Assembly (NCBI RefSeq): GCF_028372415.1 | Contig: NC_092875.1 | Location: 412,991,239 to 413,055,238, forward strand | Direction: 5' to 3' | Length of the DNA stretch: 64,000 bases | From: Notamacropus eugenii | Taxonomy: Eukaryota > Chordata > Mammalia > Diprotodontia > Macropodidae | Shown: piece by piece, positions 7,243 to 32,784 of the stretch | How the letters are laid out: every line of letters starts with the position of its first letter | Position numbering within the stretch: the first letter of the stretch is position 1 | Notes under the pieces: generated by a model | Seen by the model: only the letters and a program-made list of their open reading frames with translations | What the model was told of the DNA's origin: nothing | The model's database searches: none | Made by a program: the position numbers and the translations under genes

Positions 7243-7253
7243 GGGGGGCGGAG

Positions 7254-7263
7254 CCAAGATGGC
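7254..7263 (+). promoter_or_regulatory. YY1-type motif at HAL1 5' end
   Basis: CCAAGATGGC sits about 11 bases from the element's first base, as in human L1, where YY1 binding directs correct transcription initiation. It supports this being the true 5' end. Confidence 0.5.
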
Positions 7264-7914
7264 AGAGTAGAAAGACACACATACACATAGCTCCAAACCC
7301 ACAACCCATAGAACATCTATAAAAAGAAACTCACGGCGAATTCTGGAGCAGTAGAGGCCACAGAATAGTGGAGCAAAGGAGATTTCTGTTCCAGAGGGAC
7401 CTGCAAACCTCTCACAAAAGGTCTGTCATGCTGCGGACGTGGAGTCCAGCCCAGCCCTGCCATGGCCGCAGCACGGAGCAGAGCAGATGTGAGCGGGCTT
7501 CCCGGACAGGATGTCCAGCGGCAGCGCAGGTCCCTTCACCCACAGGTGACGGGGGTAGGTGAGAGGATCTTTTTGGCAGGTCGAGAGGGGAGTGGGGTGC
7601 CCCCATAACTCAAGCCCCTCGGGAGGCAGCAGTGGAGGCGGGAGCAGTCCGAAGCTCCCCAAGCAGACAGGAGCCTGGATCCATTGTTGAAGGTCTCTGC
7701 ATAAACCCCCTGAGGGAACTGAGCCTGAGAGGCGGCCCTGACCTGACCTGAGCACCTGAACTTAATATCACACTGAATAGTAGCGCCGTCCCTGTGGAAA
7801 CCATGAGGCTGGGAAGCAGCATTTGAATCTCAGACCCCAAGTGTTGGCTAGGAGGATCAAGAGGTGAGGTGGGTGTGAGGAGAATATTCAGAGGTCAAGT
7901 CACTGGCTGGGAAA

Positions 7915-9004
7915 ATGCCCAGAAAAGGGAAAAGAAATAAGACTATAGAAGGTTACTTTCTTGGTGAACAGGCATTTCCTCCCTTCCTTTCTGATGAGGA
8001 AGAACAATGCTTACCATCAGGCAAAGACAAAGAAGTCAAGGCTTCTGTGTCCCAGCCCACCCAATGGGCTCAGGCCAAGGAAAAGCTCAAAAAGAATTTT
8101 GAAAATCAAGTTAGAGAGGTGGAGGAAAAGCTGGGAAGAGAAATGAGAGACATGAAGTCAAAGCATGAACAGCAGGTCAGCACCCTGCTAAAGGAGACCC
8201 AAAAAAAATGCTGAAGAAAATAACACCTTGAAAAATAGGCTAACTCAATTGGCAAAACAGGTTCAAAAAGCCAATGAGGAGAAGAATGCTTTCAAAAGCA
8301 GAATTAGCCAAATGGAAAAGGAGATTCAAAAGCTCACTGAAGAAAATAGTTCTTTCAAAATTAGAATGGAACAGATGGAGGCTAATGACTTCATGAGAAA
8401 TGAAGAAATCACAAAACAAAACCAAAAGAATGAAAAAATGGAAGATAATGTGAAATATCTCATTGGAAAAACAATTGACCTGGAAAATAGATCCAGGAGA
8501 GACAATTTAAAAATTATGGGACTACCTGAAATCCTTGGTCAAAAAAAGAGCCTAGACATCATCTTTCATGAAATTATCAAGGAAAACTGCCCTGAGATTC
8601 TAGAACCAGAGGGCAAAATAAATATTCAAGGAATCCACAGAACACCACCTGAAAGAGATCCAAAAAGAGAAACTCCTAGGAACATTGTGGCCAAATTCCA
8701 GAGTTCCCAGGTCAAGGAGAAAATATTTCAAGCAGCTAGAAAGAAACAATTCAAGTATTGTGGAAATACAATCAGGATAACACAAGATCTAGCACCCTCT
8801 ACATTAAGGGATCGAAGGGCATGGAATAGGATATTCCAGAAATCAAAGGAACTAGGACTAAAACCAAGAATCACCTACCCAGCAAAACTGAGTATAATAC
8901 TTCAGGGGAAAAATTGGTCTTTCAATGAAATAGAGGACTTTCAAGCATTCTTGATGAAAACACCAGAGCTGAAAAGAAAATTTGACTTTCAAACACAAGA
9001 ATGA
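7915..9004 (+). pseudogene. HAL1/L1 ORF1 (RNA-binding chaperone), one frameshift
   Basis: L1 ORF1 protein is a trimeric coiled-coil RNA-binding protein that coats L1 RNA in cytoplasmic particles. Here the N-terminus reads MPRKGKRNKTIEGYFLGEQ. A heptad-rich coiled coil follows (about residues 55-165). Next is an RRM core with LENRSRRDNLKIMGLPE (about 193-210), and a C-terminal domain with QAARKKQFKYCGNTIRITQD and RITYPAKLSIILQGK. About 362 residues in total, similar to human ORF1p (338). The frame breaks near 8201-8208, where this copy has eight A against seven in the 30-32 kb copy, a homopolymer slip. The start is chosen because all copies share GGGAAAATG before MPK/MPR. Otherwise the frame is open to the stop at 9002-9004. 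Confidence 0.85.
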
Positions 9005-9138
9005 AGAGAACCATGAAAAGGTGAACAGCAAAGTGAAGTCATAAGGGACTTACTAAAGTTGAACTGTTTACATTCCTACATGGAAAGACAATATTTGTAA
9101 CTCTTAAAACTTTTCAGTATCTGGGTACTGGGTAGGAT

Positions 9139-9175
9139 TACACACACACACATGCACACACGCACACACACATAG
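9139..9175 (+). repeat. CA-rich microsatellite inside HAL1 3'UTR
   Basis: Interrupted CA repeat about 135 bases past the ORF1 stop. The minus-strand copies have a corresponding GT tract (12309-12340; 30699-30733), so the repeat was part of the source element and was spread with it. Confidence 0.8.
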
Positions 9176-10009
9176 AGACAGAATGCACAGAGTGAATTGA
9201 AGAGGATGGGATCATATCTTAAAAAAATGAAATCAAGCAGTGAGAGAGAAATATATTGGGAGGATAAAGAGAGAAATGGAATGGGGCAAATTATCTCTCA
9301 TAAAAGAGGCAAGCAAAAGACTTATTAGTGGAGGGATAAAGGGGGAGGGGAGAGAAAAACATGAAGTTTACTCTCATCACATTCCACTAAAGGAAAGAAT
9401 AAAATGCACACTCATTTTGGTATGAAAACCTATCTTACAATACAAGAAAGTGGGGGATAAGGGGATAAGCAGGGTGGGGGGGATGATGGAAGGGAGGGCA
9501 TGGGGAGGAGGGAGCAATTTGAGGTTGACACTCATGGGGAGGGACAGGATCAAAAGAGAATAGAAGTAATGGGGGACAGGATAGGATGGAGGGAAATATA
9601 GTTAGTCTTATACAGCACGACTATTATGGAAGTCATTTGCAAAACTACACAGATTTGGTCTATATTGAATTGCTTGCCTTCCAAAGGGAAGGGTTGGGGA
9701 GGGAGGGAGGAAGAGAAGTTGGAACTCAAAGTGTTAGGAACAACTGTCGAGTAATGTTCTTGCCACTAGGAAATAAGAAATACAGGTAAAGGGGTATAGA
9801 AAGTTATCTGGCCCTACAGGACAAAAGAGAAGATGGAGACAAGAGCAGAGAGGGATGATAGAAGAGAGAGCAGATTGGTCATAGGGGCAATTAGAATGCT
9901 TGGTGTTTGGGGGGTGAGGGAATAAAAGCGGAGAAAATTTGGAACCCAAAATTTTGTTAAAATGAATGTCAAATAAATAAATAAATAAATAAATAAACTT
10001 AAAAAAAAA

Positions 10010-10022
10010 AAGAAATACTGTA
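10010..10022. repeat. target-site duplication, second copy, shared by HAL1 and L1
   Basis: aagaaatactgta is the 3' duplication of the HAL1 element and also lies directly before the 5' truncation point of the following L1, so it appears to serve both insertions. Confidence 0.75.
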
Positions 10023-11759
10023 ACAACTTTAGCAAAGTTGCAGGATATAAAATGAATGCACATAAATCATTGGGATTTCTTGATATTACTAAGAAAGTCA
10101 AACACACAAAAGAGAAAGAGAAATTCCATTTAAAGCTACTGTAGATATTACAAAATATTTGGGAGTTTACCTGCCAAAGCAAACCTAGGAACGATATGAA
10201 TACGATTACATAATACTTCTCACACAAATAAAGTCAGATCTACGTAACTGGAAAAACATGAGTTGCTCAGGGGTAGGCCAAGCTAATATAATAAAAATGA
10301 CACTTTTACCCAAATTAATTTGCTTATTCAGTACCACATCGATCAAACTACCAAGAAAATATTTCATAGAGCTAGAAAAAAAAATAATATCAAAATTAAT
10401 CTGGGAGAACAAAAGGTTCAGAATATCAAGAAAATCAATGAAAAGAAATGCTAGGAAATGTGGCCAGATCTTAAATTGTATGATAAAGAAGCAACCATCA
10501 AAGCTACTTGGAACTGGCTAAGGAATAGAGTGGTGGATCAGTGTAATAGAGGAGGCACACAAGACACAGTAGTCAATGACTATATTAATCTACTGTTTGA
10601 TAAACCCAAAGACCCCAGCTTCTGAGATAAGAACTTACTATTTGACAAAAACCTCTAGGAAAACTGGAAAATAGTATGGCAGAAACTGGGCATGGACCAA
10701 CATATTATCCTGTATACCAAAGTAAAGTCCAAATGGGTACGTGATTTAGATATAAAGACTGATATTATAAGCAAATTAGAAGAGCAAGGAGCAGTTTTCC
10801 TTTCAGAGTTATGGAGAATGGAGAAATTTATGCCCAAACAAGACATAGAGAATTTGATTACATTAAATTGAAAAGGGTTTGCATAAAGATGCAACCAAGA
10901 TTAGGAGGGCATCATTAAATTGGAAAAGAATTTTTACAGGCAGTGTCTCTCATAAAAGCTCATTTCTAAAATATATAGAGAACTGAGTCAAATTTATAAG
11001 AATACAAATCATTTCTCCAGTTCATAAATGGTCAAAGGTATGAACAGGCAGCTTTCAGAGGAAGAAATTAAAGCTATCTATAGAAATATAGAAAAAAATG
11101 GTATAAATCACTATTGATTAGAGAGATGCAAATCAAAACAACTCTGAGATACCCCATAATACCTAACAGATTGACTATCACAACAAAACAGGAAATGATA
11201 AATACTGGAGAACATGTGGGAAAATTGGAACACTAATGCTTTTTTGGTGGAGTTATGAACTGATCCAATCATTCTGGAAAGCAATTTGGAACTGTGACCA
11301 AAGGACTATAAAACTGTACATACCCTTTGACTCAGCAATACCGCTTCTAGGGCTGTATCCCAAGGAGATCATTAAAATGGGAAAAAGACCCACATATAAA
11401 AAAATATTTATAGCAGCTCTTTTTGTGGTGGTCAAGAACTGGAATTTGAAGGAATACCAATCAATTGCGGAATGGTTGATCAAGTTGTAGCATATGAATG
11501 TAATGGAATACTATTGTGCTATATGAAATGATGAGAAGGTGGACTTCAGAGAAACCTGGAAAGACTTATATGAACTGATTCTCAGTGAAATGAGCAGAAC
11601 CAGGAGAACATTGTACACAGTAACAACCACACTGTGTGATGACTGGATTGATAGACTTAGCTCTTCCCAGTAATGCAAGGATCTAAAACAACTCCAAAAG
11701 ACCACGATGGAAAATGCCATCCACATGAAGTCTGAATGCAGATGGAAGCATACTATTTG

Positions 11760-11791
<32 letters not shown>

Positions 11792-12011
11792 TGCTTTGCT
11801 TTTGTTTCTTCTTTCTCATGGTTCATCCCATTGATTATAACTATACAACATGACTAATGTGAAAATATGCTTAATATGAATGTAGAGGTAAAGCTTATAT
11901 CATATTGCATGCCATTTTGGGTAGGGGGAGGGGTGAGAGGTGGAGAAAAATTAAAACTCAAAAACTTGTGGAACTGAAAGTTGAAAACTAAAATTAATTT
12001 TTTTCTAAATA
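10023..12011 (+). mobile_element. 5'-truncated L1: ORF2 C-terminal half and 3'UTR
   Basis: Conceptual translation across frames gives the post-FADD part of L1 ORF2: FSKVAGYK near the start, then ANIIKMTLLPKLICLFSTTS and YFIELEKKIISKLIWENKRF (10285-10420), both in L1 order. Next come the zinc-knuckle region, LMLFWWSYELIQSFWKAIWN with IPFDSAIPLLGLYPKEI (11236-11370), and the VMEYYCAI-type C-terminus. A CT-rich tract (11758-11792) and a purine-rich 3'UTR end at AAATAAAG. Many stops and frame changes show it is old. Possible TSD with 12012-12023. Confidence 0.85.
11236..11490 (+). pseudogene. L1 ORF2 C-terminal segment (partial open frame)
   Basis: This 84-codon frame matches the segment after the cysteine cluster of L1 ORF2 (SYELIQSFWKAIWN, then KLYIPFDSAIPLLGLYPKEI, then FVVVKNWNLKEYQSIAEWL). 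It lies in the RNA-binding C-terminal domain required for L1 retrotransposition. It is part of a dead, 5'-truncated L1 rather than a gene on its own. Confidence 0.8.
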
Positions 12012-12039
12012 AAGAAATATTGTGTATGAGATATAGTAC

Positions 12040-12122
12040 AATACCATCAGAATAGAAAGACTATGCCTTCTTTTACCCCAAATAGTTTCTGCCTTCTTAG
12101 AGCTTACATTCAGTTATTTTCC
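12040..12122 (-). mobile_element. possible L2 relic, antisense
   Basis: The words 'ctgccttcttagagcttaca' and 'ttcagtt' resemble the reverse complement of the L2 3' region ('ctgccctcaaggagcttaca'). Short and weak, but a clearer L2 antisense piece lies on the far side of the adjacent HAL1-type copy. Confidence 0.35.
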
Positions 12123-14165
12123 CCTCTCCCCTCTCCCCTTCTCCCTTTACTCCTCCATTGAACAAGATTTTTCCTATCTCCCATTCCTTTTCTCCCTTTC
12201 TCCTCCCAGTATTTTTCTCTCTCACCTTCTGATTTTTATTTTATTTTATGGATATTATCTCTTCTGATTCAACTCAACCTGTATTCTCTGTCTAACTCTC
12301 TGTCTATATGTGTGTGTGTGTTTGTATGTGTGTGTATAATCCCTCCACCTACCCAAATACTGAGAAAAGTCTCAAGAGTTACAAATATTATCTTTCCACA
12401 TAAGAATGTAAACAGTTAAGCTTTAGAAAGTCCTTTATGATTTCTCTTTCCTGCTTAACTTTTCATGCTTCTCTTGATCCTTGTGTTTGAAAGTCAAATT
12501 TTCTCTTCAGTTCTGGTCTTTTCATCAAGAATGCTTGAAAGTCCTTTACATCATTGAATTACCTTCTATTCCCTTGAAGTATTATACTCAGTTTTGCTGG
12601 GTAGGTGATTCTTGGTTTTAATCCCAGTTCCTTTGACTTCTGGAATATCCTATTCCAAGCCCTTCAGTTCCTTAGTGTAGAAGCTGCCAGATCCTGTGTT
12701 ATCCTTATTATACTTCTACTATACTCAAATTGTTTCTTTCTAGCTGTTTGCAATATTTTCTCCGTGAGCTGGAAACTCTGAAATTTGGCCACAATATTCC
12801 TAGGAGTTTCTCTTTTCGAGTCTCTTTCAGGAGCTGATTGGTGGATTCTTTCAATATTTATTTTGCCTTCTGGTTCTAGAATGTCAGGGCAGTTTTCCTT
12901 GATAATTTTGTGAAAGATCATGTCGAGGCTCTTTTTTTTGATCATGGCTTTCAGGTATTCCCATAATTTTTAAATTGTCTCTCCTGGATCTATTTTCCAG
13001 GTCAGTTGTTTTTCCAATGAGATGTTTCACATTATCTTCTATTTTTTCAGTCTTTTGGTTTTGTTTTTTAACTTCTTGGTTTATCTCATAGTCATTAGCT
13101 TCCCTGAACTCCACTCTCTCTTTTAAAGAATTATTTTGTTCAGTGAGCTTTTGAACCTTCTTTTCCATTTGACTAATTCTGCTTTTTAAAGCATCCTTCT
13201 CCTCATTGACTTTTTGGACTTCTTTTTCCAATTGAGTTAGCCTATTTTTAAAGATGTTATTTTCCTCAAAAATTTTTTTTGGTTCTCCTTTAGCAAACTG
13301 CTGACTCACTTTTCACTCTTCTATGACTTGAACCCATTTCATATTCATTTTGGAGGTACTGGAGGCAGAAGCCTTGACTTCCTCTGACATTATGCCTTGT
13401 CCTTCCTCATTGGAAAGGATGGAAAGAGACACCTGTTCACCAAGAAAGTAACCTCCTATGGTCTTATTTTTTCCCCTTTTTGGGGCATTTTCCCAGCCAG
13501 TTACTTGACTTCTGAATCCTTTGTCAAGGGAAGGGTCCTAGTGCTCCTCCTCCCTCCAGTACCATGCTCAAGGCTGAGATTCAGATCAGCTGCTCAATTC
13601 CCTTAGGGGCTTTGAGGTGGGGCAGGGCCATCACTGAGGGCTGAGGTTTAGATCAGCTGCTCAATTCCCCCAGAGACTTTAAGCTGAGCTTCCTGGACAA
13701 TGGACCCAGGCTGCTTCCATGGCCACTGTAGCTGCCTGCTTACCACTGCTGCTGCTGCTGCTGCTGCCACCTCTGCCACTACCTGGCACCAGTGCTGGGG
13801 GACCCCACTCCTCTCTTGCCCAGCTGGGAAAGCCCTCCCACACTGACCTTTGGAGCTTTCTTTTTTTGCTTGTGGGTTGAGGGATCTGGGACCCTCCCTG
13901 CTGGGAATTCTGCCCTGGAGGTCTGTTCAGGTCCTGTTCCTCCCAGTTCTGCAAGGCCAGGGCTGGGCTCTGCTCAGGGTCCTGTGAGATAACCCTTTCC
14001 TGTTGGCCTTCCAGGTTACTTCTGGATGGAAACCTCTTTCACTCTGTTGTTCTATGGCTTCTGCCACAGAATTTGTTGAGAGTCATTTTTTACAAGTATT
14101 TTGTGGGCTGTGGGGGAAGTGCTAGAGTATATGCATATTTCTATTCTGCCATCTTGGCTCCACCC
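12123..14165 (-). mobile_element. older HAL1-type copy, 3'-truncated, no TSD seen
   Basis: Minus strand, starting near 14165 with the L1 5' word GAGCCAAGATGGCAGAATAG. A GC-rich 5'UTR of about 680 bp includes a CTG/CAG-type run near 13747-13770. ORF1 then follows (13488 to about 12480), and part of the same 3'UTR as the 7.2 kb copy (GT tract 12309-12340, then purine-rich sequence), ending near 12123 well short of the normal tail. I found no matching duplication at the two ends. Divergence from the other copies and several frame breaks suggest greater age. Confidence 0.8.
12477..13488 (-). pseudogene. HAL1/L1 ORF1, broken
   Basis: The start codon (13486-13488) follows the conserved GGCTGGGAAA. 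The coiled-coil and RRM part is readable from 13309 downward (ISQMEKKVQKLTEQNNSLKE, HLIGKTTDLENRSRRDNLKI). The frame changes near 12935 at a run of eight A where the 44 kb copy has seven, and continues to 12664 (ILEPEGKINIERIHQSAPER, QTARKKQFEYSRSIIRITQD). An upstream in-frame break around 13310-13320 separates the N-terminus. Same domain order as the intact family members. Confidence 0.8.
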
Positions 14166-14169
14166 TGAG

Positions 14170-14340
14170 GACATTAATTTAATGTCAGGCCAAGGAGTAT
14201 GCATTCCATCCTAGAAGCGATAGGTAAATTTTTTAAAAATGGGCAGAGGAAATGACATCATCTACTGATAGAGGTAAAATGAATAGCATTTTACCATTGA
14301 TTGGATATAGGGAATGAAAGAGGGGAAGCATCAAAAGCTA
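14170..14340 (-). mobile_element. L2 ORF2 relic, antisense
   Basis: The plus strand reads 'aggccaaggagtatgcattc', 'catcctagaagcgataggta', 'gcagaggaaatgacatcatc', 'accattgattggatataggg'. These follow the reverse complement of the L2 reverse-transcriptase 3' half in order. Heavily decayed. Confidence 0.5.
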
Positions 14341-15199
14341 CAAATTTATAAACCCATTTGACTAGAATGCCCTCAATAATGTGTACACTCAACAGAAATA
14401 ATAAAGTTTATAGAAGCCCACTTACTTAAGAGTCTAATGATTGGTGGAGAATGAATATTCATTTCTACATATTGCATGAGCAGCAAAGTTGGCAAGTACT
14501 TGGTAGAAAAGAGATTTCTTATGTTTTACAGTTTAAGAGAGAACATATATGGTTCAGGCTCTCTTCAGGGAGAGATCTCTGGAGGGAGTGAAATTCTCCA
14601 GTGAGAAGCCAATATGTAGAAGATCTGGCACCCTGATCATGTCTCTGTTCCCAGGAAATTTCTGCTTAGGTGAGATCTGTCTATTACTCTGTCCTATGGT
14701 TGAGCTAAGATATTCGTTCCCAGTGGAAGAGCTCATTTACTCTGTAAGTGATCTACAATCTAATAAGTATAATTTCTTTGATTCCGATTTGATATCAGCT
14801 TAGATAAATATATTTATTTGCTATTCCTATGCATTATGGTTTTTGTGTAACTGGCATTTTGTAGGAAGGAAGGAAGTCAAGACTTTAGATATGTAGCTTG
14901 TGGCACTCCTTTTCTGGGATAGTGACCAGGAACTCAACTTGAACTTAAAAATTATTTCCCCAATACTAACAATACTTAGGGGTGGGGGAAAATAAACATA
15001 ATTCTATCTTAGAATTTATCTCTGAGTAAAGTAGAATGTCCTGCCCTGTGGTCCCAATTAAATGCTCCCCTCCTGATAACAATCAAATTCCTTGAAGAAG
15101 AATGAATGAAGTAGACTCTAAAGATATACGTTCATGCCTCCCTGTAAGCCACATCTAGAAAGATACATGTAGACATGTAGATTTCATAAAAACAAATGA
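14341..15199. other. no recognisable gene or repeat
   Basis: AT-rich intergenic sequence. The 84-codon plus-strand frame at 14549-14803 has no recognisable motif and no coding neighbours, and I treat it as chance. Confidence 0.4.
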
Positions 15200-15504
15200 T
15201 TTTATTTGTTCAATATTAAGCACATATGCCCTCAAATATAATGGTATTCAAATTCTTAAAGGAAAAGTTGAATAAGTTAGAGGATGAAATAAACAGTAAG
15301 ACTATACTAATGGAGGACCTCAATTTGACCCTTTCAGATCTAGAAAAATCTAGCCATTAAAATAAGAAAGAGGTTAAAGAAATGAATAGAATTTTAGGAA
15401 AAAAGTTAGATATGATAGACCTCTGGAGTATATTGAATGGGAATAGAAAGATGTATTCTTGTTTCTCAGTTGTGTGTGGCACCTTCACTAAAATTGATCA
15501 TATA

Positions 15505-15599
15505 CCAATATATGTGTATGTATATATATATGTGTGTGTGTGTATGTGTGTGTGTGTAAAACTAATACACACACATATATATGTGTATATATATATATG

Positions 15600-15631
<32 letters not shown>

Positions 15632-15635
15632 GCTA
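15505..15635. repeat. compound (TG)n/(CA)n/(TA)n microsatellite
   Basis: A TG-rich arm (15530-15556) is followed within 10 bases by a CA-rich arm and then long alternating TA. The arms are mutually complementary and could fold back. It sits inside the old L1. Confidence 0.85.
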
Positions 15636-16454
15636 CCATATTATTAACCCAATATATAATGGTATAAAAACCTCACAAATGTAGAAAAGCAGAAATATTA
15701 AATGAATTTTTCTTACCATGATGCAATAAAACTATGTTCAAGAAAAGATGTTTCAGAATAAATTTAAACTAGTTGGAAACTAAATATATAATTCTAAAGA
15801 ATGAATGGGTCAAAGAATATATCACAGAAACAATCAGTAACTTCATTCATGATAAAAGTATCCACAAGGCAACATATCAAAATCTGTGTGATACACCCAA
15901 TGTAGTACTACTTCTACCAGAAAAAGAAAGGACAGAAAAACAAAATTAGGCATACAAAATAACTTAGAAAAAACTATAAATTTAAAAATCTCAATTAGGC
16001 ATGAAAATGGAAATTCTGAAAATCAAAGATGAGTAACAAAATTTAAAGTTAAAAAACTGAACTAAGAAATAAAATTAGAGTTTTTTGGGGGGCAAAATAG
16101 AAAAAAAATTGCATAATTTGATTTTTTAAAAAGAAAACCAAATTACCAGTATCAAAAACAAAAAAGAATGAATTCACAACTAATGAAAATAAAATAAAAG
16201 CAATTAATAGGAGCCATTTTGCCCAACTATATTCCAATAAAACTGACAACCTAAATGAAATCAATGAATATATACAAAAATATAAATTGCCTAGATTAAC
16301 AGAATAGGAAATAAAATACCCAAGTAACCCTATCTTTAAAAAAAAAAGAAATTGAAGAAGTCATAAATAAGCTTTTTAGGAATAAAATCCCAGGATTTAC
16401 AAATGAATTCTATCAAACATTTAAGAAAAATAATTCCAATACTACACAATCTTT

Positions 16455-16510
16455 TAACTATATATACATATATATGTATGCATGTATATGCATATATATA
16501 CATCTATATG
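16455..16510. repeat. alternating TA/TG/CA low-complexity tract
   Basis: Alternating purine-pyrimidine run (tatatacatatatatgtatg and similar) within the old L1. Confidence 0.7.
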
Positions 16511-21074: not shown

Positions 21075-21235
21075 CAGGGGTGGGGAACCTCTGGCCTTGA
21101 GGCCACATGTGGCCTTCTCAATCCTTGGGTGTGGCCTTTTGATTGAATTCAAGTTTTACAGAACTTTGTTCTGTGAAGTTTGGATTCAGTCAAAGGGCTG
21201 CATGAGACCTTGAGACCATGGGTTCCCTACTCCTG
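21075..21235. mobile_element. hAT-like MITE, 161 bp, near-palindromic
   Basis: The left end is CAGGGGTGGGGAACCTCTGG. The right end, reverse complemented, is CAGGAGTAGGGAACCCATGG. The two halves are complementary well beyond the termini (tggccttgaggccacatgtg; gactgaatccaaacttc pairing). Flanking 8-mers (actaggta, ttagaaag) share only part of their sequence, so the target duplication has decayed. Non-coding. Confidence 0.65.
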
Positions 21236-22655: not shown

Positions 22656-22679
22656 ATAATATAGGAAGTATTGTTGATT

Positions 22680-23290: not shown

Positions 23291-23869
23291 GGATGTTAAC
23301 TTTAAACTTTTCCATCTAGCCCACTAAATTCGTTTTTTAATGGTAAACTAGCTTAAGTCTCTGATGTGGTAAGATAAGAATTGGACCTGTGATCTCATTC
23401 ATGTATTTGGAGGTACTGGCTCATTTGATTAGGTCTAGGACATATTGAGGAGTTCCTCACCACCATTGGCTGCAGTGAAGGGGAGGCTAACTTCCATCTG
23501 AGGATTTGGTATGCAATTTTACTCCAGTATTTCTGGAGCATTTCCTTCAATGTTCAAAGGCTATTGGTGACTTTTTTCCTTGCCAAATTTGAGATGATGG
23601 GAAGGAGAAAGAGCCAAGCAGCATTCTTCTATCTTCTATGACTGTCTGTCTGTCAATCAGCATCTATATGATTAGAATCATTATTGGTTCTTTCATGTTA
23701 ACACGGTTCAGCCATCCAGTGACATTAACAGCAAGGAGGGCACCACCTCTTCTATTCCTCTCCCTATAATTGTTGGTATTCCATATATTTTGGAGGAATA
23801 CTCTATTGCTACAAAATTCATATATATTGATTTAGAATCTGAAGTGGCTTAGCATATTCAAAGATTCTT

Positions 23870-24560
23870 TTTCCACAGCCTGCTGGAAAATGTAAAGTGG
23901 AAGGATTCTTTGGGATCACATGATGATTCAGAGTTAGATTAACATTTATAGAGCCCATCCATCAGTACATATATCTTGTCTTGATACTGAACTCAGCCCA
24001 GATTAAGCAGCAGGAGGGAAGCAGACAACATTGCCTTTGGGAAACTCTACAATGCTTTTAATGATTACAAGCTGTTCTCGAAACAAAGGACCAATAATCT
24101 TTTCCCAGTGATGCCTTGTGGTTATGAGTCATGGAATACCACAGTCTCTGAAAAGAATTGGGCGTCTGAAGTTGCTGGCCACTCAAAGGGCAATGTGGTG
24201 GATGGTGAGTGTGAATGGATTGCAACATATTACCAAGGAAGTTTTGGTAGAGGAAGGGATCATAGAGGCCTAAAAAAGGGAAAGAGACTCATCATTTAGA
24301 GAGAATATGGGATAACCAATGAACAACCTGTGTGATTTGTTGGTATCTGTAAAAGGTTCAGAGATCCATTGGAACAACTCTAATGCAATACATTGGGTAG
24401 CCCTTCTGTGGAGGATTAATGAGAGAATATGAAAAAGCATAGGACAGAAGGAGAAGAAATGGATGGATTATGATAAACAACATTGAAGGACTATCCACAT
24501 GGACAAAGTCACAGATCCATTCAGTTAAATATGCATCAAGGTTTTGAGATATTGCCTATA
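23870..24560 (+). mobile_element. RTE-clade LINE relic, C-terminal end of ORF2
   Basis: Translation from about 24032 gives AFGKLYNAFNDYKLFSKQR, TNNLFPVMPCGYESWNTTV, SEKN. This is the RTE motif 'AFxKL...LP.L.YGCESW.L', which follows the reverse transcriptase domain. Degenerate matches to the 'RW..HV.R..DNRW' type ending continue to about 24560. Frames are broken throughout. RTE elements supply the 3' tail copied by the gttggacatgac-type SINEs elsewhere in this window. Confidence 0.65.
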
Positions 24561-25254
24561 AATAACGCTTTTCTTTCCAGGGCAACAGGGCAGCAGGGAT
24601 GTGCTGGTTAATGTTTAACAACCATCTCTTCACATCCCCCACCTCCACCCCCAATCTGTGTACATGACACACTTTCAAGTTTATTCTTTTTTTTCTCTAT
24701 TACTTTCTTAAGTCTAGATAGTAAGTAAAACAATAAACCAAGCTTTGATTTGTAGCCCTTGCTGATTTTTAAAGCGTAAGTCCTCACATTGAAAATTTAA
24801 CAATTAACTCTCTGGTCTAGCCTGGGGCAGGGACATAGGAAGTACCTGTTTACCTTGGGCACTTAACTATGTGAACCTATATCTTTCTCATGACTAAAAC
24901 TCTCTGGTCCATCTTTTTCTAACATCATGTTGCCCAGACCATCTTAATTGTTTGTCATTCCTTTAAAAGAAAATTCGTAAGTATAGGGTGAGATTAGAGG
25001 AAGTACAAAAAGCAAGGGAATATGAAACTTATTTCTGTTTTTTTCTTCTCAACTATCACGTCCTTTCTCTCAACATATTCTATTACCAGTTACTCTATTT
25101 CCTTTTCCGAAATTGAGAATTTTTTGTCCCCACAATCAGTCAACTATTTAATTCCTCTTGTCTGTTTAATGGGGGTTTTACCTCCAAGTTCATTTTATAT
25201 ATTTGTATGCTTTTATTGCTATTGTAAAGTAGAACAAAGAGAAGGCAGTATTAA
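24561..25254. other. no recognisable gene or repeat
   Basis: Unassigned AT-rich DNA. The 98-codon frame at 25022-25318 is rich in Ser, Phe and Ile from T-rich DNA and runs into an L2 tail, so I do not call it a gene. Confidence 0.35.
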
Positions 25255-25370
25255 AATACATTCAATTAAACCAGTCTTTATTAACTGTCTATTACATCCC
25301 AGGTACTCTACTAGATAATAGGGCTGTAATGACAAGCAGACAGTCCTTGTCCTTCATTCAAGGTTCTGGA
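25255..25370 (-). mobile_element. L2/MIR 3' tail relic, antisense
   Basis: Words 'ccagtctttattaactgtct', 'attacatcccaggtactcta', 'gacagtccttgtccttcatt' follow the reverse complement of the L2 3' region. Confidence 0.45.
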
Positions 25371-25589
25371 GATAGGAGTGCCATTCTAATGTTTGTCATT
25401 TTTGCTTGATCATGGTATTCTTTCAATGTGGATGTTATGGCACAAAGCAATGAAGACTAAATAACCTGAGAAAAATTAATGAATGATCCAGAGTAACTAA
25501 CTCAGCTATAAAACTGTAATTAACTGTTGGTCAAGTCTCCTTCAGAGTCAGTGGTATATGATGCATTAATTTTTACTTCCTGAATAGCA

Positions 25590-25705
25590 AAGCTGACTCT
25601 TTGATGACAGGGATAATTTAATTTTTGTCTTTTTTGTATATTCATCCTGTAGTACAGTGTCTGTTACATAAGAAGTATTTTATAAGTTCTTGTTGAATGA
25701 ATAAA
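25590..25705 (+). mobile_element. L2 3' end relic
   Basis: 'tttgatgacagggataattt' then 'tagtacagtgtctgttacat', 'aagaagtattttataagttc' and 'ttgttgaatgaataaatt' match the L2 terminus, including the TGAATGAA-like end. Confidence 0.6.
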
Positions 25706-25940
25706 TTAACCAACATAGCATTGTATACAAGGTACAGATGATTGTTCTACAAACATTATATTGTCACAATTTTATTATGTGTTGTTCCCAGTTATACAAT
25801 GGATATTCTCTACTTTTTAATAATATTTACAATTAAGCATAGAAAAAGTTATAAGAAAAAATTTAAGAATTTGATTGCTCCCTCTTTTCCTGCTTTCTCC
25901 CTCCCCCTCCCCAAATCAATCCTAACTTCATCCTCTTGAT

Positions 25941-26166
25941 CAGAGGGGTGAGACAAATCCAGGAAGCTACATATGACTCACAACACTCCTGAGTGCAGAT
26001 CAAATCAGACTAAAATGTAATTGGGAAATATTTCACAAAATAAATAAAAATTTAATAAACCATAAATAATGTTTAATATGTAGTTTTCAAAATTAATTTG
26101 CCTCCCACAGGGATACTTCTGTGTGGTTTAGTGGTGCACATTTTTTATTTGAGTTTGACACCACTG
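25941..26166. mobile_element. hAT-like MITE (family shared with 38.6 kb)
   Basis: The left end is CAGAGGGGTGAGACAAATCC. The right end, reverse complemented, is CAGTGGTGTCAAACTCAAAT. The right-hand interior read in reverse (gtgtcaaactcaaataaaaa) matches the second copy at about 38605 (ggtgtcaaactcaaatagaa). Flanking 8-mers ctcttgat and ctctaagt share five positions, compatible with a decayed 8-bp duplication. Confidence 0.6.
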
Positions 26167-26349
26167 CTCTAAGTTATCACCTCAGGATATAAGCAGAAGC
26201 AGAATATAGCTGATCCGGCGATAGATGGAGTGCACTATGAAAGGGCAAAGGAGAGTGACCAGAAAGGCCAGAAGGGAGCTGGGCATGGATCATTTATTAA
26301 ATATGCTGGCAACAGATAATTAGGTTCTACACATACTTTGGCATACATC

Positions 26350-26880
26350 TGGGCTTGGTGGCTTGACTCATGAGCCTTCAGAGTTGTCTTACATTGTTGT
26401 ATTGCTGGGAAGAGCTAAATCTGTCAAAAGTGGTCATTACACAATGTTGCTGCGGACAATGTTCTCCTGGTTCTGATCACTTCACTCAAGATCAGTTCAT
26501 GTAAGTTTTTCCAGGTTTTTCTGAAATCTGCCTGCTCATCATTTCTTATAGCACAATGTAGTATTCCATTACATTCACATAATACAACTTGTTCAATCAT
26601 TCCCCAATTGATGCATATCCCATTAATTTCCAATTCTCTACCACCACAAAAAGGGCTGCCATAAGTATTTTTGTATATGTGGGTCCTTTCTCCATTTTTG
26701 TGATGTTTTGTGGATACAGCCTTAGAAATGGTATTATTGGATCAAAGGGTATGCACAGTTTTATAGGCCTTTGAGCATAGCTCCAAATTGTTCTCCAGAA
26801 TAGTTGGATCAGTTCACAACTCTACCAACAATGCATTAGTGTTCCAATTTTCCCACATCTTCTACAAGATTTATCATCTT
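26350..26880 (-). mobile_element. L1 ORF2 C-terminal end, antisense
   Basis: The minus strand encodes INWGMIEQVVLCECNGILHC and AIRNDEQADFRKTWKNLHEL (26633 downward), plus a segment matching the post-zinc-knuckle region further up (26770-26880). Usual L1 3'UTR sequence is not obvious at the low-coordinate end, so it may be 3'-truncated or decayed. Confidence 0.75.
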
Positions 26881-26984
26881 TTAAAAAAAAAACAACTTTT
26901 CTGTCTTATGAACAGCAAAAACACTGAGGTTTGATACAATAAAAAGGTAAATGTTAAAACTAATCCAAAGTAAAATAGTATTCT

Positions 26985-27140
26985 GTGAGAAGTTGAGGAT
27001 TCTTGCTCACTGGAGGTCTTGAATCAAAATCTGTATGACCAATCACTGGGTTTCTTGAGGGAGATTCTTGTTCATTTAATTGGACTAGATGGCCTTCTTA
27101 GGAACTTTCAGCTCCTGATATTCTGTAATTCTTTGAAGTC
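26985..27140 (+). mobile_element. CR1/L3-type LINE 3' end relic
   Basis: Words in order: 'ctggaggtcttgaatcaaaa', 'ctgtatgaccaatcactggg', 'gagggagattcttgttcatt', 'ggactagatggccttcttag', 'ctgatattctgtaattcttt'. This is the conserved amniote CR1/L3 3'UTR pattern (GGACTAGATGGCCTCTGAGG ... ATTCTGTGATTCT). Confidence 0.65.
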
Positions 27141-28254
27141 AATTTGATCCTTAGGCAGAGACTGTTTTCTCTGAGATCTCAAGTATGCATCTTCCTAGGT
27201 ACCATTTTCTACCTCGATGACTTTCAGGTCTGGTAGGTATGTGTACAGAAGGTGCAAACTGTGGCTACAGCTGTGCTCTGGTCCTTGTCCAAGAGACCAG
27301 AAGAACTGAAATGATAGATGTCTCCTTACAAAAGGACTTCCCTTTATTCCTCTCAACATGAAGTAAAACATTTTCAATATAAAGAGAATAAAGAGATTTT
27401 TTTGAAAAAAATTATTTGAAAAATGTTCTGTCTGTATGAGTTTCTATAATTATATTCTTATACCTTTTAAATTTGAAGTCTTGTAGGATAAGGACATCTA
27501 TTTTTATGGTCTCTGAAATTCCCAATGCATAACCCTTTGAGAACATTCAAACTCTAAAATGCAATGATGACGATAACATTTAAAAATACTTTAAGTTTGT
27601 TAAAACATTTATTACTATATCCTTGCATATTAATATATACTCTAATTTTGGGTTAATAAACTATATTAACATATAAGGTATATTTTGCTATCATAGCCTC
27701 TGTGGGACTAATACAGAGGCTTCCATTGAGTGGACAAGTGGTTTCAGTTGGATGATCTTACTTTTAAATCTAAGCAGTCTTCCAAGAGCAGCAATACCAT
27801 TTTGCCCACAGGTTCATCTAAGTCTATTAGTGCTCATTAGCTTATTCCTTCCAAGTAAGATGTTAATGACCTTCTGATGACCCTGGATTATTTTCAGCTT
27901 CTTTATTTGGAACTCTTCAGTTCTTCAAATCAGGCAAGAACGCATAGTTACATAGCCATGACTCTGGAAGTTCTGCATTACTGACCCAAAGTAGCAGAAA
28001 GAAAGATGAAAATTGTAAAAACCCTGATTATCTGAAAATTCATAGGAACCTTCAGTTAACTGGATTTTATGCTTTGTTTCTTCAAAGGAAAAAATTCACA
28101 ACAAAACAAGATTATAAGGTAACAGAGATGTATTTGTATCTATTATATGTATTAGATGTATTTGTATCTATTATATTCATGTATAATTAGCTTACATAAA
28201 ACAATACCAGTAAACCACTGCGCGATGTCTTCCAAGATTCATCCATTGAGAACA
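27141..28254. other. repeat-poor intergenic DNA
   Basis: No repeat family recognised over about 1.1 kb except the 28-bp tandem listed separately. Candidate unique sequence. Confidence 0.35.
28126..28176. repeat. tandem duplication, 28-bp period
   Basis: The 23-base word beginning agatgtatttgtatctatta occurs exactly at 28126-28148 and 28154-28176. A recent local duplication or replication slip. Confidence 0.8.
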
Positions 28255-28365
28255 TGTCAGCTTGTTGAAGACAAGGATTTTTCACCTTTGTCTTTGTATC
28301 TCAACCATCTAGCAATGTGGATCCTACTGAGGATAAACATAATAAATACTTGTTAATTAGTTGAT
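28255..28365 (+). mobile_element. L2 3' end relic
   Basis: 'cagcttgttgaagacaagga', 'ctttgtctttgtatctcaac', 'gaggataaacataataaata' and 'cttgttaatta' correspond to the L2 3' terminus. Confidence 0.55.
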
Positions 28366-28914
28366 TATCTCCAGTATATTGTTATAACTAGGGTCATTAA
28401 ATAGGCCAATCTATTTTACAAAGTTTTAAAATGCTTGCTGAAAGAAAAACAGTAGTCTAAATAATCCTCAATCAATCAGAAATCCAATTAATCAGACAAA
28501 GGCATTTTCTGTACATTCTGGTTAATCAAGGTCTTGGCTTAGTAGTGATTTGATTGTTAAAACTGCCTTTCCCTTCTGATTGCTTAGAATTTTACCACAA
28601 TCATAGCATAGAAAAACTAAAGCCACATGCCATTAATATATCAGGATAATGTCACTGAAATCTTTCAATTTTCCTGTACTTACATTTTTTATTTTTTAAT
28701 TCAATTTTATTTTATTTTTATTTTGAAATTCTCTCCCTCCCTCTATCCCCATTCACTCAAAGAGAAGAAAAACAGAACTCACTACAAGTATGTATTATGT
28801 TTATCTTTCTAATGTAAGTTTGGGATTTATCTCTGTGTCTGAGAGCTTAGTCTCAGATTTTCATGTAGCTGATCATAGATTTAGGACTGGTAAAGATGTT
28901 AGAAATCACCTGGT

Positions 28915-29030
28915 CTAAGCACCACATTTTTGGAAACTGAGGCCCAGAGAGGTGAAGTCACATGTGTAGTACCTGGCAGACCTAGGATTTGAATCTCAGT
29001 CTCCAAATCCACTCTACCAGGTGTTTTGTG
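28915..29030 (-). mobile_element. MIR SINE relic, antisense
   Basis: 'aaactgaggcccagagaggt' then 'gaagtcacatgtgtagtacc', 'cctaggatttgaatctcagt' and 'ctccaaatccactctaccag' is the reverse complement of MIR in correct order. A GT microsatellite follows (29030-29053). Confidence 0.7.
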
Positions 29031-29134
29031 CGTGTATGTGTGTGTGTGTGTGTGGAGTTGGGGACGGCATCTTCCTTTTGAAGAGAAAATATATAACATA
29101 ATTAAGGAGCAGAAATAGAAAAGGAAGGAGGAAA

Positions 29135-29640
29135 GTGATAAGCATTTATTAAATATCTACTACGGGCCAGGCTGTGCACAGAGCCTTTTATTTTTATTTA
29201 TTTATTTTTAAAGGTCATTTAGTTCAGTCCTCTCCTTTTTTATTTTTATTTTTGAGGGGGAACTGCAAGGCAATTGGGGTTAAGTGAGTTGCCCAAGGTC
29301 ATACAGCTAGTAAGTGAGTCAAGTATTAGAGGTTGGATTATATTTGAATATTATATATATAGTATTAGAACTCAGGTTCTCCTGACTCCAGGGCTGGTAT
29401 TCTATACATTCACTGCACCATCTAGCTGCCCCCATGCAGAGCATTTTACAAATATGATCTCATTTGATTTTCTCAACAACCCTGATGCATCTATCATTAT
29501 TCTCATTTCATAGTTGATGAAAGAGGCACACAAAGGTTAAGTGACTTGCCCAGCATTACACAGCTAGTAAGTGTCTGAGGCTGGACTTGAACTCAGGTTC
29601 TCCTGACTCCAGGCCTAGTGTTCTATCCACTGAAATATCT
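29135..29640 (-). mobile_element. MIR/THER SINE, antisense, split by a younger SINE
   Basis: The tail side (agcatttattaaatatctac, gggccaggctgtgcacagag) lies at 29135-29190. The rest resumes at 29437 (gcagagcattttacaaatat ... gcattacacagctagtaagt ... gaactcaggttctcctgact) and reaches the head near 29635. The split is caused by the insertion at 29191-29436. Confidence 0.7.
29191..29436 (-). mobile_element. tRNA-headed marsupial SINE nested in a MIR
   Basis: On the minus strand it starts with the gggggcagctagatggtgca head (near 29433) and ends in two A-rich tracts. The flanks cagagcctttta (29179-29190) and cagagcatttta (29437-29448) match at 11 of 12 bases, the target duplication made when it landed in the older SINE. 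The poly-A tail fits L1-driven movement. Confidence 0.8.
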
Positions 29641-29824
29641 AATGTTTAGACACTGTAGCTGGTAAAATGACATAGATATGTAAACATGTTGGCATTTTAA
29701 ATAAAGAACTTGGTGTTAGAATTGTTATTATTGGGCCAATACAGTCAATAAAATAATAAATTCTTGATTCTAATAACTTGGAGATTACCTTTCTAGTGAA
29801 ATATCTAAAACTTCTTTTGCATTG

Positions 29825-29839
29825 TCTAAGAACATCTTT
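29825..29839. repeat. 15-bp TSD of the 30-32 kb HAL1 (low-coordinate copy)
   Basis: tctaagaacatcttt is identical to 32785-32799. Read on the element's strand it starts AAAGA, a normal L1 endonuclease target. Confidence 0.9.
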
Positions 29840-30698
29840 TTTTGTTGTTCAGCAAAATAAATTCTTTTATTTATTTATTCATCCTGTTATTTATTTATTT
29901 TATTTTCCACATTCATTTCCACAAAATTTGAGTTCCATATTTCTTCTCCATCTCTTCCCTCCCCCCACCCCAAATCGCAAAACATTCTAATTACCCCTAT
30001 CACCAATCTGCCCTCCCTTGTAGCATTCCTCCCTTCCCTTATCCCCATCTTCTCTTTTGTCCTGTAGGGCAAGATAAATTTCTATACGCCATTACCTGTA
30101 TATCTCATTTCCTAGTTGTGTGTAAGAACAATACTCAACAGTTGTTTCTAAAACTTTGAGTTCCAACTTCTCTTCATCCCTCCCTCCTCACCAACCCCCA
30201 CTGGGAAGGCAAGTAATTCAATATAGGCCATATCTGTGTAGTTTTGCAAATGACTTCCATAATAGTCATGTTGTGTAAGACTAACTATATTTCCCTACAT
30301 CCTATCCTGCCCCCTATTTCTTCTACTCTCTATTTTGACCCTGTCCCTCCCCAAGAATGTTGACTTCTAATTGCTCCCTTCACTCATTGTCCTCCCTTCC
30401 ATCATACCCCCTACCCTGCTTATCTACTTCTCCCCCACTTCCCTGTATTGTAAGATAGGTTTTCATACCAAAATGAGTGTGCATTTTATTCCTTCCTTTA
30501 GTCGAATGTAATGAGAGTAAGCTTCATTTTCTCTCACCTCCCCCCTTTTTACCTCCACTGAAAAGTCTTTTACTTGCCTCTTTTATGAGATAATTTGCCC
30601 CATTCCATTTCTCCCTTTCTCCTCCCAATATATTTCTCTCACCCTTTAATTTCATTTTTTTAAGATGTGATCCCATCCTATTTGACTTACCCTGTGCT

Positions 30699-30699
30699 A

Positions 30700-30733
<34 letters not shown>

Positions 30734-30735
30734 TA
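30699..30735. repeat. (GT)n microsatellite in HAL1 3'UTR
   Basis: About 17 GT units at the position equivalent to the CA tract of the 7.2-10 kb copy (opposite orientation). Confidence 0.85.
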
Positions 30736-30887
30736 TGTGTAATCTCACCAACTACCCAGATACTGAAAAAAGTTTCAAGAGTTACAAATATTATCTTTCC
30801 ATGTAGGAATGTAAATAGTTCAATTTTAGTAAGTCCCTTATGATTTCTCTTTCCTGTTTACCTTTTCATACTTCCCTTGATTCTTGT

Positions 30888-31978
30888 GTTTGAAAGTCAA
30901 ATTTTCTTTTCAGCTCTATTCTTTTCATCAAGAATGTTTGAAAGTCCTCTATTTTATTGAAAGACTATTTTTTCCCCTGAAGTATTATACTCAGTTTTTC
31001 TGGGAAGGTAATTCTTGATTTTAATACTAGTTCCTTTGACTTCTGGAATATCATATTCCACACCCTTCAATCCATTAATGTAGAAGCTGCTAGATCTTGT
31101 GTTATCCTGATTGTATTTCGACATTACTTGAATTGTTTCTTTCTAGCTGCTTGCAATATTTTCTCCTTGACCTGGGAACTCTAGAATTTGGCTACAATGT
31201 TCCTAGAGGTTTCTTTTTTTGGATCTCTTTCAGGAGGTGATTGGTGGATTCTTTCAATATTTATTTTGCCCTCTGGTTCTAGAATCTCAGGGCAGTTTTC
31301 CTTGATAATTTCATGAAAAATGATATCTAGGCTCTTTTTATGATTATGGCTTTCAAGTAGTCCCTTAATTTTTAAATTGTCTCTCCTGGATCTATTTTCC
31401 AGGTCAGTTGTTTTTCCAGTGACATATTCCCCATTATCTTCCATTTTTTCATTCTTTTGGTTTTGTTTTGTGATTTCTTGATTTCTCATAAAGTCATTAG
31501 CCTCCATCTGTTCCATTCTAATTTTGAAAGAACTATTTTCTTTAGTGAGCTTTTGAACTGCCTTTTCCATCTGGCTAATTCTGCTTTTGAAAGCATTCTT
31601 CTCCTCATTAGCTTTTTGAACTTCTTTTGCCAGTTGAGTTAGACTGTTTTTAAAGGTGTTATTTTCTTCAGCATTTTTTTGGGTCTCCTTTAGCAAGGTG
31701 TTGACCTGCTTTTCGTGCTTTTTTTGCATCTCTCTCATTTCTCTTCCCAATTTTTCCTCCACCTCTCTAACTTGATTTTCAAAATCCTTTTTGAGCTCTT
31801 CCATGCCCTGAGACCATTGAATATTTATTTTCGATGTTTGGGATACAGAAGCCTTGACTTTTATGTCTTTCCCTGAGGGTAAGCATTGTTCTTCCTCATC
31901 CAAAAGGATGGGAGAAGATATCTCTTCACCAAGAAAGTAACCTTCTATAGTTTTATTTTTTTCCCCTTTTTTGGGCAT
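30888..31978 (-). pseudogene. HAL1/L1 ORF1, few stops
   Basis: Open for 265 codons from MPKKGEKNKTIEGYFLGEE through the coiled coil (MEELKKDFENQVREVEEKLG, ISQMEKAVQKLTKENSSFK) and the RRM (GKTTDLENRSRRDNLKIKG) to RDPKKETSRNIVAKF. It stops at 31181-31183, where the 7.2 kb copy has a CAG codon. The C-terminal domain continues in the same frame with at least one more stop soon after (KKQFK-stop). The normal end at QTQE-stop is also lost. Role as for the other ORF1 copies: single-stranded RNA binding and chaperone in the L1 particle. Confidence 0.85.
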
Positions 31979-32784
31979 TCTCCCAACCAGTTACTTGACT
32001 TTTGGGTCTTTTGTCAAGAGCAGGGTATACTCTGGTGATCTGTAAGATCTCAGTTCCTCCCAAGTGGCACAATCAAGCATGTACACTGGTCTGGGAGTAG
32101 GGGGAGATTTTTGTGTCTAGAATCTTAGCAGAGTTTCCTCTTCACAACCACCTCACCTCCAGTGCCACCAAGACAGCATTGGGGGCTGAGATTCAGATAA
32201 GATGTGGGGGCAGGGCTGCCATTTAATGAGCGATAAAGATCTGCCACAGGGCCTTTATACAGAGTTGAGGTAAAAATCAGCTGTTCAGCACCCCCAGGGG
32301 TTTTACAATCCAACAACACATGCGGGCTGCTGTAGGGGCTGCTATGGGAACTGCTACTGCCTGCCCGATGAGGTCTCTGAAGGTTGCAGCCTGAAGTTGG
32401 AGCTATGGGAAGGTCCTTCTCCCTTCTTGGCCAGCTGAAAAAACCCTCTCACTGACCTTTGGCACCTGTGGGTTGAAGGATCTGTGAACCACTGCTACTG
32501 CGACTGGAGATTCCACCCCCAAGCCCTGTTCATGTCCTCCTAGAGTTGTGCCATGCTGAGCCAGCCAAGGCTGGGCTGGGCTCCACTCTGCGTCCAGTGT
32601 GACAGACATTTCCTATTGGCCTTTCAGGTCACCCTGGGCTGGAAATTTCCTCCACTCTGTTGTTCTGTGGCTTCTGTTGCTCTAGAATTTGTTGAGAGTC
32701 TTTTTTTACAGATATTTTATGGCTGTGGAGGGAAAGCCAACATACGTGTGTCTTTCTACTCTGCCATCTTGACTCTACCCCCTC

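Follow-up and report, generated by a model that had tools for sequence, protein, structure and literature searches.

Complete ORF1-only L1 elements with a common ORF2 deletion junction in the genome of Notamacropus eugenii

In a window of 64,000 nt from Notamacropus eugenii (NC_092875.1; relatives were sampled from its own genome), two elements, copy A (7243-10009, + strand) and copy B (32784-29840, - strand), are complete ORF1-only L1 elements. We consider it very probable that they are HAL1-type non-autonomous L1s, from a family born by the loss of ORF2 with the spacer joined to the L1 3'UTR. The family is large and recently active; it fits a known kind of element, with informative local details, and is possibly catalogued already. 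HAL1 (half-L1) elements of mammals were reportedly described by Smit in 1999 and by Bao and Jurka in 2010. The parts of the two copies, and the L1 fragment that adjoins A, are:

7230-7242, + strand: 5' TSD of A (AAGAAATACTGTA; exact, 13 bp)
7243-7914, + strand: 5'UTR of A
7915-9004, + strand: ORF1 of A (PF02994, PF17490)
9005-9593, + strand: 3' region of A, part 1, homologue of the L1 ORF1-ORF2 spacer (aligned part 9189-9593)
9602-9990, + strand: 3' region of A, part 2, L1 3'UTR-like (best match 9602-9713)
10010-10022, + strand: 3' TSD of A, which doubles as 5' TSD for the older, downstream L1 fragment
10023 to ~12011, + strand: older 5'-truncated L1 with the C-terminal half of ORF2 and a 3'UTR, adjoining A on the same strand
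29840-32784, - strand: B, complete HAL1-type element
32785-32799 (5') and 29825-29839 (other), - strand: TSDs of B (15 bp, exact)
32784-31979, - strand: 5'UTR of B
31978-30877, - strand: ORF1 of B, with four in-frame stops
30877 to ~30290, - strand: spacer-derived part of B, followed by an L1-3'UTR-derived part (~30280-29893) and the tail

The first-pass annotation had described two copies with exact TSDs, and both pairs are indeed exact; a word of at least 13 was shared by 2 of 4000 random pairs at the TSD spacing of A, and a word of at least 15 by none of 4000 at that of B. It had also given the plan as 5'UTR, ORF1, purine-rich 3'UTR and tail. This anatomy holds, but the label "3'UTR" does not, as the purine-rich region of A and B is mostly the ~580-bp inter-ORF spacer of full L1s (homology score 105 for A and 128 for B, with maxima of 60 and 74, respectively, in 200 shuffles). 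The spacer of A runs to the ORF2 deletion junction at ~9593/9602, beyond which the likeness to the L1 3'UTR scores 49 (vs 42 in 100 shuffles) and two L1 3'-end-like segments lie in tandem within 9602-9990; for B, the comparison with the L1 3'UTR copy L060 was not significant (score reached by 5 of 100 shuffles). Pfam matched the L1 ORF1 domains PF02994 and PF17490 in the ORF1 pieces of A and of a third locus, D (described below); the pieces submitted for B and for a fourth locus, C, matched neither. Relative to D, the ORF1 of A carries an insertion of 1 nt and a deletion of 12 nt, with no internal stop in the frame of D; the 5'UTR of A is far more diverged from B and D than its ORF1, i.e. A is a mosaic. 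A scan with 19 L1 motifs found no ORF2 motif inside A or B, and two ORF2 endonuclease motifs had no match anywhere in the window. A and B thus lack the ORF2 of an autonomous L1, the spacer passing directly into L1 3'UTR-like sequence, and the absence of ORF2 together with one common junction across independent insertions, as in HAL1, was found in A, B and their relatives.

All seven ORF1 loci listed by the first-pass annotation were recovered in blastn searches that used A and B as queries. The loci other than A and B, and the second L1 fragment, are:

3220-4030 (blastn 4029-3220), - strand: G, 5'-complete and tailless, stops in the coiled coil of ORF1, TSD of 17 bp (exact)
12120-14167 (blastn from 14165, last match 12180), - strand: C, 5'-complete, stops within the spacer-derived region
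40980-41802, - strand: 5'-truncated L1 inserted downstream of E, with an ORF2 C-terminus corresponding to human ORF2p residues 1117-1206
41803-43225, - strand: E, old ORF1 element, with ORF1 (blastn 42938-42211) and a spacer-like part (42290-41803)
43226-45206, + strand: D, 5'-complete, ORF1 at 44002-45102 with one stop and no frameshift
43210-43225 and 45200-45215, + strand: TSD of D (16 bp, exact)
61446-61781, + strand: F, ORF1 fragment (blastn match)

These loci bear on a rival explanation, in which the copies in the window are ordinary L1s that lost ORF2 singly, by deletion, truncation or nesting, and no ORF1-only family exists. C, D, E, F and G do stop within sequence that full L1s share, and L1 fragments adjoin A and E. 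The ORF2 relics are nevertheless separate insertions, as had been claimed, though close to these two loci: the fragment after A has a decayed third copy of A's TSD at 12012-12024 (2 of 13 positions mismatched), and the L1 at 41802 to ~40980 is flanked by a common AT-rich 10-bp word (AAGAATATAT). For A and B, single loss is refuted by their common junction within independent TSDs, and the same junction is common to 27 of 29 relatives fetched from the genome and to all ten 374-aa ORF1s sampled, which leaves this explanation very improbable overall. The idea that the five relics C-G are themselves ORF1-only was not sustained, since they end inside sequence common to L1 and HAL1 (5'UTR, ORF1, spacer) and the window alone cannot class them so.

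The relatives were collected in two ways. Querying the N. eugenii genome with the whole of A gave 18,484 first-look candidates (unverified as copies), 40 of which, A included, were scored; querying with ORF1 only, which picks the closest relatives of A by construction, gave 3627 candidates, with 40 scored and 30 fetched including A itself. Among the 29 fetched relatives, 26 align from position 1-4 of A and 27 extend to position 2739 or beyond, the other two being tailless truncations; two (L013 and L037) are without ~150 bp internally, and one (L016) has a repeated stretch. A flank word of at least 12 bp was seen in 16 of the 29 (one is an A run), vs 6 of 2000 random pairs. None of 36 elements (L002-L038, setting aside copy A, L009) has ORF2 inside it; ORF2 was found in the flanks only, in 10 of the 36. 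In a profile-based sample (20 of 150 rows, picked by frame length), ten of ten 374-aa ORF1s run into the HAL1 junction and ten of ten 404-aa ORF1s run into ORF2, so in the sampled copies two L1 populations coexist in this genome, a 374-aa HAL1 type and a 404-aa ORF2-bearing type. The 374-aa frame is present in 44 of 150 ORF1-domain rows and a 1298-aa frame in 39 of 150 RT-domain rows (one with an internal stop), and all 19 other fetched loci are 96.2-97.7% like L039. The proposal of an ORF1-only, HAL1-like family is thus borne out by one junction common to the sampled genomic copies: in these samples the junction is not unique to the window, and the relatives do not mostly continue into ORF2. 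Recent activity of the lineage, also proposed, is backed by the best pairs (99.4% identical over ~351 bp). An L1 with long open ORF2 frames coexists with the family. Outside this genome, no relatives were found in viral contigs (protein scan and two exact patterns) or in genome contigs (one exact pattern).

Copies that lack a tail but have exact TSDs are a known phenomenon, and D and G are two of them; their TSDs of 16 and 17 bp had escaped the first-pass annotation. Both have a TSD, no A tail and a 3' truncation at a target-complementary site (D ends 104 nt past ORF1), with element-target overlaps of 7 nt in D and 6 nt in G; at a random junction such runs have a chance of 0.0008 and 0.0026, respectively. 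Elsewhere in the genome, L017 and L023 from the HAL1 clade are likewise tailless and 3'-truncated with exact TSDs; with overlaps of just 4 nt (chance 0.023) and 2 nt (chance 0.18), they say little or nothing for complementarity. In their 3' truncation, missing tail and exact TSDs, these four resemble the tailless retropseudogenes in the cited part of PMC5322556; unlike those, they derive from HAL1 or L1 RNA, and L017 and L023 have shorter overlaps. The targets start with AAGAAA in G, CTTGAA in D and TTCCAT in L017, and those of D and L017 do not fit the consensus TT/WAAAAWW given there. The tailless ends seem to be clustered just past ORF1, in a sample that is too small. For C, a TSD was searched for and none was found.

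Since C, D and G stop before HAL1 and L1 diverge, they might be tailless copies internally primed with full-length L1 RNA, not HAL1 RNA, as the template, internal priming being a source of tailless copies described in the cited part of PMC5322556. We regard this as unlikely, while giving it some weight. In ORF1, D has a mean identity of 91.6% to the HAL1 loci and an identity of 63.7% to the sampled L1; for C, the values are 84.1% and 64.4%, and the comparison covers one L1 lineage. The HAL1 clade itself also includes tailless copies of this type (L017 and L023). The ORF1 part of G scores 205 with B and 201 with D, vs 55 with L061, a comparison that is unfair to L1 because L061 as fetched is without its first ~20 codons.

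E was at one stage taken for an old HAL1, on the basis of an alignment of 42290-41803 with the 3' region of A (score reached by 0 of 100 shuffles). We withdrew this assignment because full L1s also carry that spacer (E vs the L061 spacer: score reached by 1 of 200 shuffles). Four of 600 random window segments score equally high against the 3' region of A, all four at a real L1 3'UTR (36.7-37.0 kb), and the 5' region of E has no convincing match among HAL1 5'UTRs (scores reached by 21, 1, 19 and 60 of 100 shuffles). The spacer-like region of E is common to L1 and HAL1 and fits either.

Purifying selection probably maintained ORF1 in the source copies, with neutral decay once a copy has inserted, to judge from the variants among 39 copies. 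The fraction of nonsynonymous plus nonsense changes is 0.751 of 374 singletons, which fits the neutral 0.74-0.81, 0.699 of 93 doubletons, and 0.598 of 87 variants common to at least three copies (Fisher p 0.005; p 0.056 without CpG columns and without B and D). Codon-model tests of omega=1 gave 2dlnL of ~7.5 (GY) and ~6.3 (MGK), vs the best grid value. The first-pass annotation had asked why the near-open ORF1 at 44.0-45.1 kb (that of D) is kept, and one answer would be that a HAL1 ORF1 was domesticated for a host function, as its single stop and lack of frameshifts might suggest. We find this extremely unlikely: a simple product of 28-36 private substitutions and a nonsense share of 0.043-0.056 predicts ~1.2-2 stops per copy, and A has 0, B 4 and D 1, so that D has about the number expected for its age and needs no special reason, and the singletons fit neutrality.

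Building on what was observed directly, namely the anatomy of the elements, a junction that recurs in sampled copies, the coexisting open-ORF2 L1, the TSDs and the tails, we propose that an L1 lost ORF2 by a deletion that fused the L1 3'UTR to an inter-ORF spacer cut off before its end, giving an element of ~2.8 kb made up of 5'UTR, ORF1, spacer, 3' end and tail. The HAL1 RNA would be made from an internal promoter within the 5'UTR (rat HAL1 retains a 5' promoter, according to the cited part of PMC8535693) and would be translated to an ORF1 protein that binds its own RNA in cis; such binding would explain why ORF1 is under selection in source copies. L1 ORF2 protein, acting in trans, would nick the DNA and start reverse transcription at the A-rich tail, and internal priming by short complementarity may give 5'-complete tailless copies like D and G; inserted copies would then decay neutrally. 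Having lost the gene for the copying enzyme, HAL1 has probably spread with that of full-length relatives. Counting against this model, the ORF1 of HAL1 shares just 63.7-65.1% identity with that of the sampled L1 in a global alignment (73.7% in a local one, spacer included), and likeness at the 3' ends is weak (76% over 99 bp); the sampled L1 is no more than a candidate helper.

The A/B family is like mammalian HAL1 in being L1-derived, with ORF1 only, an A-rich tail and TSDs (dependence on L1 is presumed for HAL1 in the cited part of PMC5322556), and unlike it in the retained long L1 inter-ORF spacer, which makes up most of the 3' region. HAL1 arose independently several times in mammals, as stated in the cited part of PMC5753468; in the part of the literature on the topic that was searched, we found no description of a marsupial HAL1. 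The long spacer of bat L1 is described as inhibitory and its persistence as hard to explain in the cited part of PMC4072516. Full L1s here resemble those L1s with a long intergenic region, the inter-ORF spacer being 581 bp in L059, and HAL1 differs in retaining the spacer without ORF2, so that in HAL1 it cannot serve ORF2 translation. Conceivably, a long-lived ORF1-only lineage beside full L1s keeps the spacer under constraint despite having no ORF2, which we rate as doubtful. The ratio of shared to single variants is 0.21 in the spacer, 0.17 in the 3'UTR, 0.21 in ORF1 and 0.32 in the 5'UTR, and the difference between spacer and ORF1 synonymous variants is not significant (p 0.16), which makes spacer constraint just a lead.

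For the annotation of such genomes, ORF1-bearing relics should be classed as half-L1 only where they extend to the deletion junction. The genome of N. eugenii is a clean example of two coexisting L1 populations, separable in the sample by ORF1 frame (374 vs 404 aa) and by the sequence after the spacer. Selection on ORF1 without ORF2 opens the question of what ORF1p contributes to its own RNA, and the retained spacer that of whether long L1 spacers act beyond ORF2 translation. If the spacer were under constraint, it would have a role of its own in the RNA, distinct from ORF2 translation (in stability, ORF1p packaging or priming), and the HAL1 family would serve as a natural experiment on the reasons why L1s retain long, costly spacers.

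Using copies A and B as blastn queries, we found seven loci with L1 ORF1 in the window. Two are complete ORF1-only elements of the half-L1 (HAL1) type with tails and exact target-site duplications (TSDs), as the first-pass annotation had described:

7243-10009, + strand: copy A, both ends present, A-rich tail, exact 13-bp TSD
32784-29840, - strand: copy B, both ends present, A-rich tail, exact 15-bp TSD

By chance, shared words of at least 13 bp were found in 2 of 4000 random pairs at A's spacing, and words of at least 15 bp in 0 of 4000 at B's spacing. A and B share 84-92% identity per segment from ORF1 through the 3' end, and 64-70% in their 5'UTRs. In the 5'UTR, 122 differences are found in A only, versus 46 in B only and 52 in D only (D is another ORF1 locus, 43226-45206, + strand); in ORF1, A, B and D have 50, 47 and 38 single-copy differences, respectively. 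Judged by sequence comparison, A's 5'UTR (7243-7914) is a mosaic with a history unlike that of its ORF1, pointing to 5'UTR exchange between lineages.

HAL1 elements, with ORF1 only and several mammalian origins, have been described (PMC5753468), with nearly 2,100 human copies reported (PMC5322556). We searched the tammar assembly (3.445 Gb, 254 contigs, including the window) with the whole of A and found 39 other places of 2.0-2.8 kb at 91-96% identity (40 scored of 18,484 first-look candidates). So that the 3' region played no part in the selection, the C-terminal half of ORF1 served as a second query (3,627 candidates, 40 scored, 30 retrieved, A among them), and 27 of the 29 relatives, a set biased by construction toward close kin of A, reach A position 2739 or further (including L013 and L037, with ~150 bp missing internally, and L016, with one stretch repeated); the other two, L017 and L023, stop earlier and lack a tail. 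Alignments start at A position 1-4 in 26 of the 29 (later starts: L011 at 44, L026 at 55, L036 at 644). As to whether relatives mostly run on into ORF2, a search with L1 ORF2 found it inside the element in 0 of 36 loci (L002-L038, leaving A, L009, aside); it is confined to the flanks, in 10 of the 36. In an independent sample collected by the Pfam ORF1 domain (80,130 candidates, 150 scored), open frames cluster at two lengths, with 44 rows at 374 aa and 19 at 404 aa. Among the first 10 rows of each class (351 bp each at the spacer end), the spacer leads into the L1 3'UTR in 10/10 of the 374-aa class and into ORF2 in 10/10 of the 404-aa class. One junction is shared by 27 of the 29 retrieved relatives and by these ten 374-aa loci. 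Median pair identity is 96.8% and 97.1% (~351 bp), respectively, and the best pair is 99.4% identical in both classes; both were therefore recently active, in agreement with the proposal of an active lineage.

Full L1s in this genome have the order ORF1, purine-rich spacer, ORF2, 3'UTR (L039 with L059/L060; L042 with L061/L062); L059 has a 581-bp spacer and a frameshifted ORF1. Long spacers are described in marsupial and other L1s (PMC4072516). The purine-rich 3' region annotated after ORF1 is present, but a large part of it (bases 185-589 of this region in A) matches the L059 inter-ORF spacer with a score of 105, which 0/200 shuffles reach (their mean is 42.6, max 60), and B's 3' region matches the L061 spacer (score 128; shuffle max 74, 0/200). 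Bases 598-709 of A's 3' region match the L062 L1 3'UTR (score 49; shuffle max 42, 0/100), and B's 3' region has no significant match to the L060 3'UTR (5/100 shuffles reach the score). Since a spacer match is followed by a 3'UTR match, A carries an ORF2 deletion joining spacer to 3'UTR, with its junction near 9593/9602 of the window. Two L1 3'-end-like segments lie in tandem in the part derived from the 3'UTR (9575-9990).

The other five loci (C-G), annotated as relics of ORF1-only elements, all terminate within 5'UTR-ORF1-spacer, which L1 and HAL1 share, so their ends do not prove that reading. C and D group with HAL1 by ORF1 similarity (84.1% and 91.6% mean identity to HAL1 loci, respectively, each ~64% to the L061 L1). 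For E, F and G, alignment scores with A, B and D exceed those with L061, with older L1 lineages lying outside the sample and the L061 piece lacking the first ~20 codons, which makes the comparison unfair for G (3220-4030, - strand).

D and G have exact TSDs (16 bp; 17 bp, 3209-3225 and 4031-4047) and no tail, as do L017 (17 bp) and L023 (16 bp). Read from the sequences, the stretch common to element and target is 7 nt long in D and 6 nt long in G (random-junction frequencies 0.0008 and 0.0026); in L017 and L023 it is no more than 4 nt and 2 nt (frequencies 0.023 and 0.18), and these two therefore add little. Target-primed reverse transcription begun inside the RNA would account for D and G, resembling the tailless retropseudogenes for which PMC5322556 describes an internal start; that source counts 90 3'-truncated tailless, 708 full-length and 5,593 doubly truncated human L1s with TSDs. 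L023, L017 and D (window 45206) end at A positions 1760, 1834 and 1866, at most ~105 nt from the ORF1 stop. In this small sample of three tailless HAL1-like copies, the zone just past the stop is possibly preferred for internal priming.

An older 5'-truncated L1 fragment (10023-12011) directly abuts A's 3' TSD, and a third copy of this TSD follows at 12012-12024 with 2/13 mismatches, a level of match found at 13 sites in the window on both strands, a count that takes in the TSDs already known for A and G. From this adjoining fragment and third copy, we infer that A most likely inserted at the cut site of the earlier L1, with coinciding 13-bp TSDs (7230-12024). The TSDs of G and A (7230-7242) have the 11-mer AAGAAATACTG in common, with different flanks, probably through chance and endonuclease preference. 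Among the 29 retrieved HAL1 copies, four are nested in another HAL1 in the same orientation (L010, L011, L030, L031), and six are flanked at either end by L1 ORF2, as though they had landed in an L1 (L014, L015, L018, L022, L032, L034); the L1 copy L062 ends within a HAL1 3' region. Insertions may favour L1 coding sequence that is rich in A.

Across 39 ORF1 copies, namely 36 genomic ones plus A, B and D but not C, the nonsynonymous or nonsense fraction is 0.751 of 374 variants seen once, 0.699 of 93 seen twice, and 0.598 of 87 in at least three copies (once versus at least three: Fisher p 0.005), with a neutral expectation of 0.74-0.81. With CpG columns, B and D removed (37 copies), p is 0.056, and nonsense changes make up 0/60 shared variants versus 17/288 singletons. 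Codon models for A, B, C and D reject omega 1 (2dlnL ~7.5 and 6.3 versus the best grid value); simple pairwise omega is 0.44-0.50. ORF1 is thus likely maintained in source copies and free to decay once inserted; the near-open ORF1 of D (44.0-45.1 kb), which had raised the question of why ORF1 is kept, fits a decaying copy.

The sequences show the anatomy, the junction, the sampled copy family, TSDs, tails, coexisting L1s with long open ORF2 and, probably, selection on ORF1. In the proposed mechanism, HAL1 would be transcribed from its 5'UTR, its ORF1p would bind the HAL1 RNA in cis, and L1 ORF2p would reverse-transcribe that RNA in trans.
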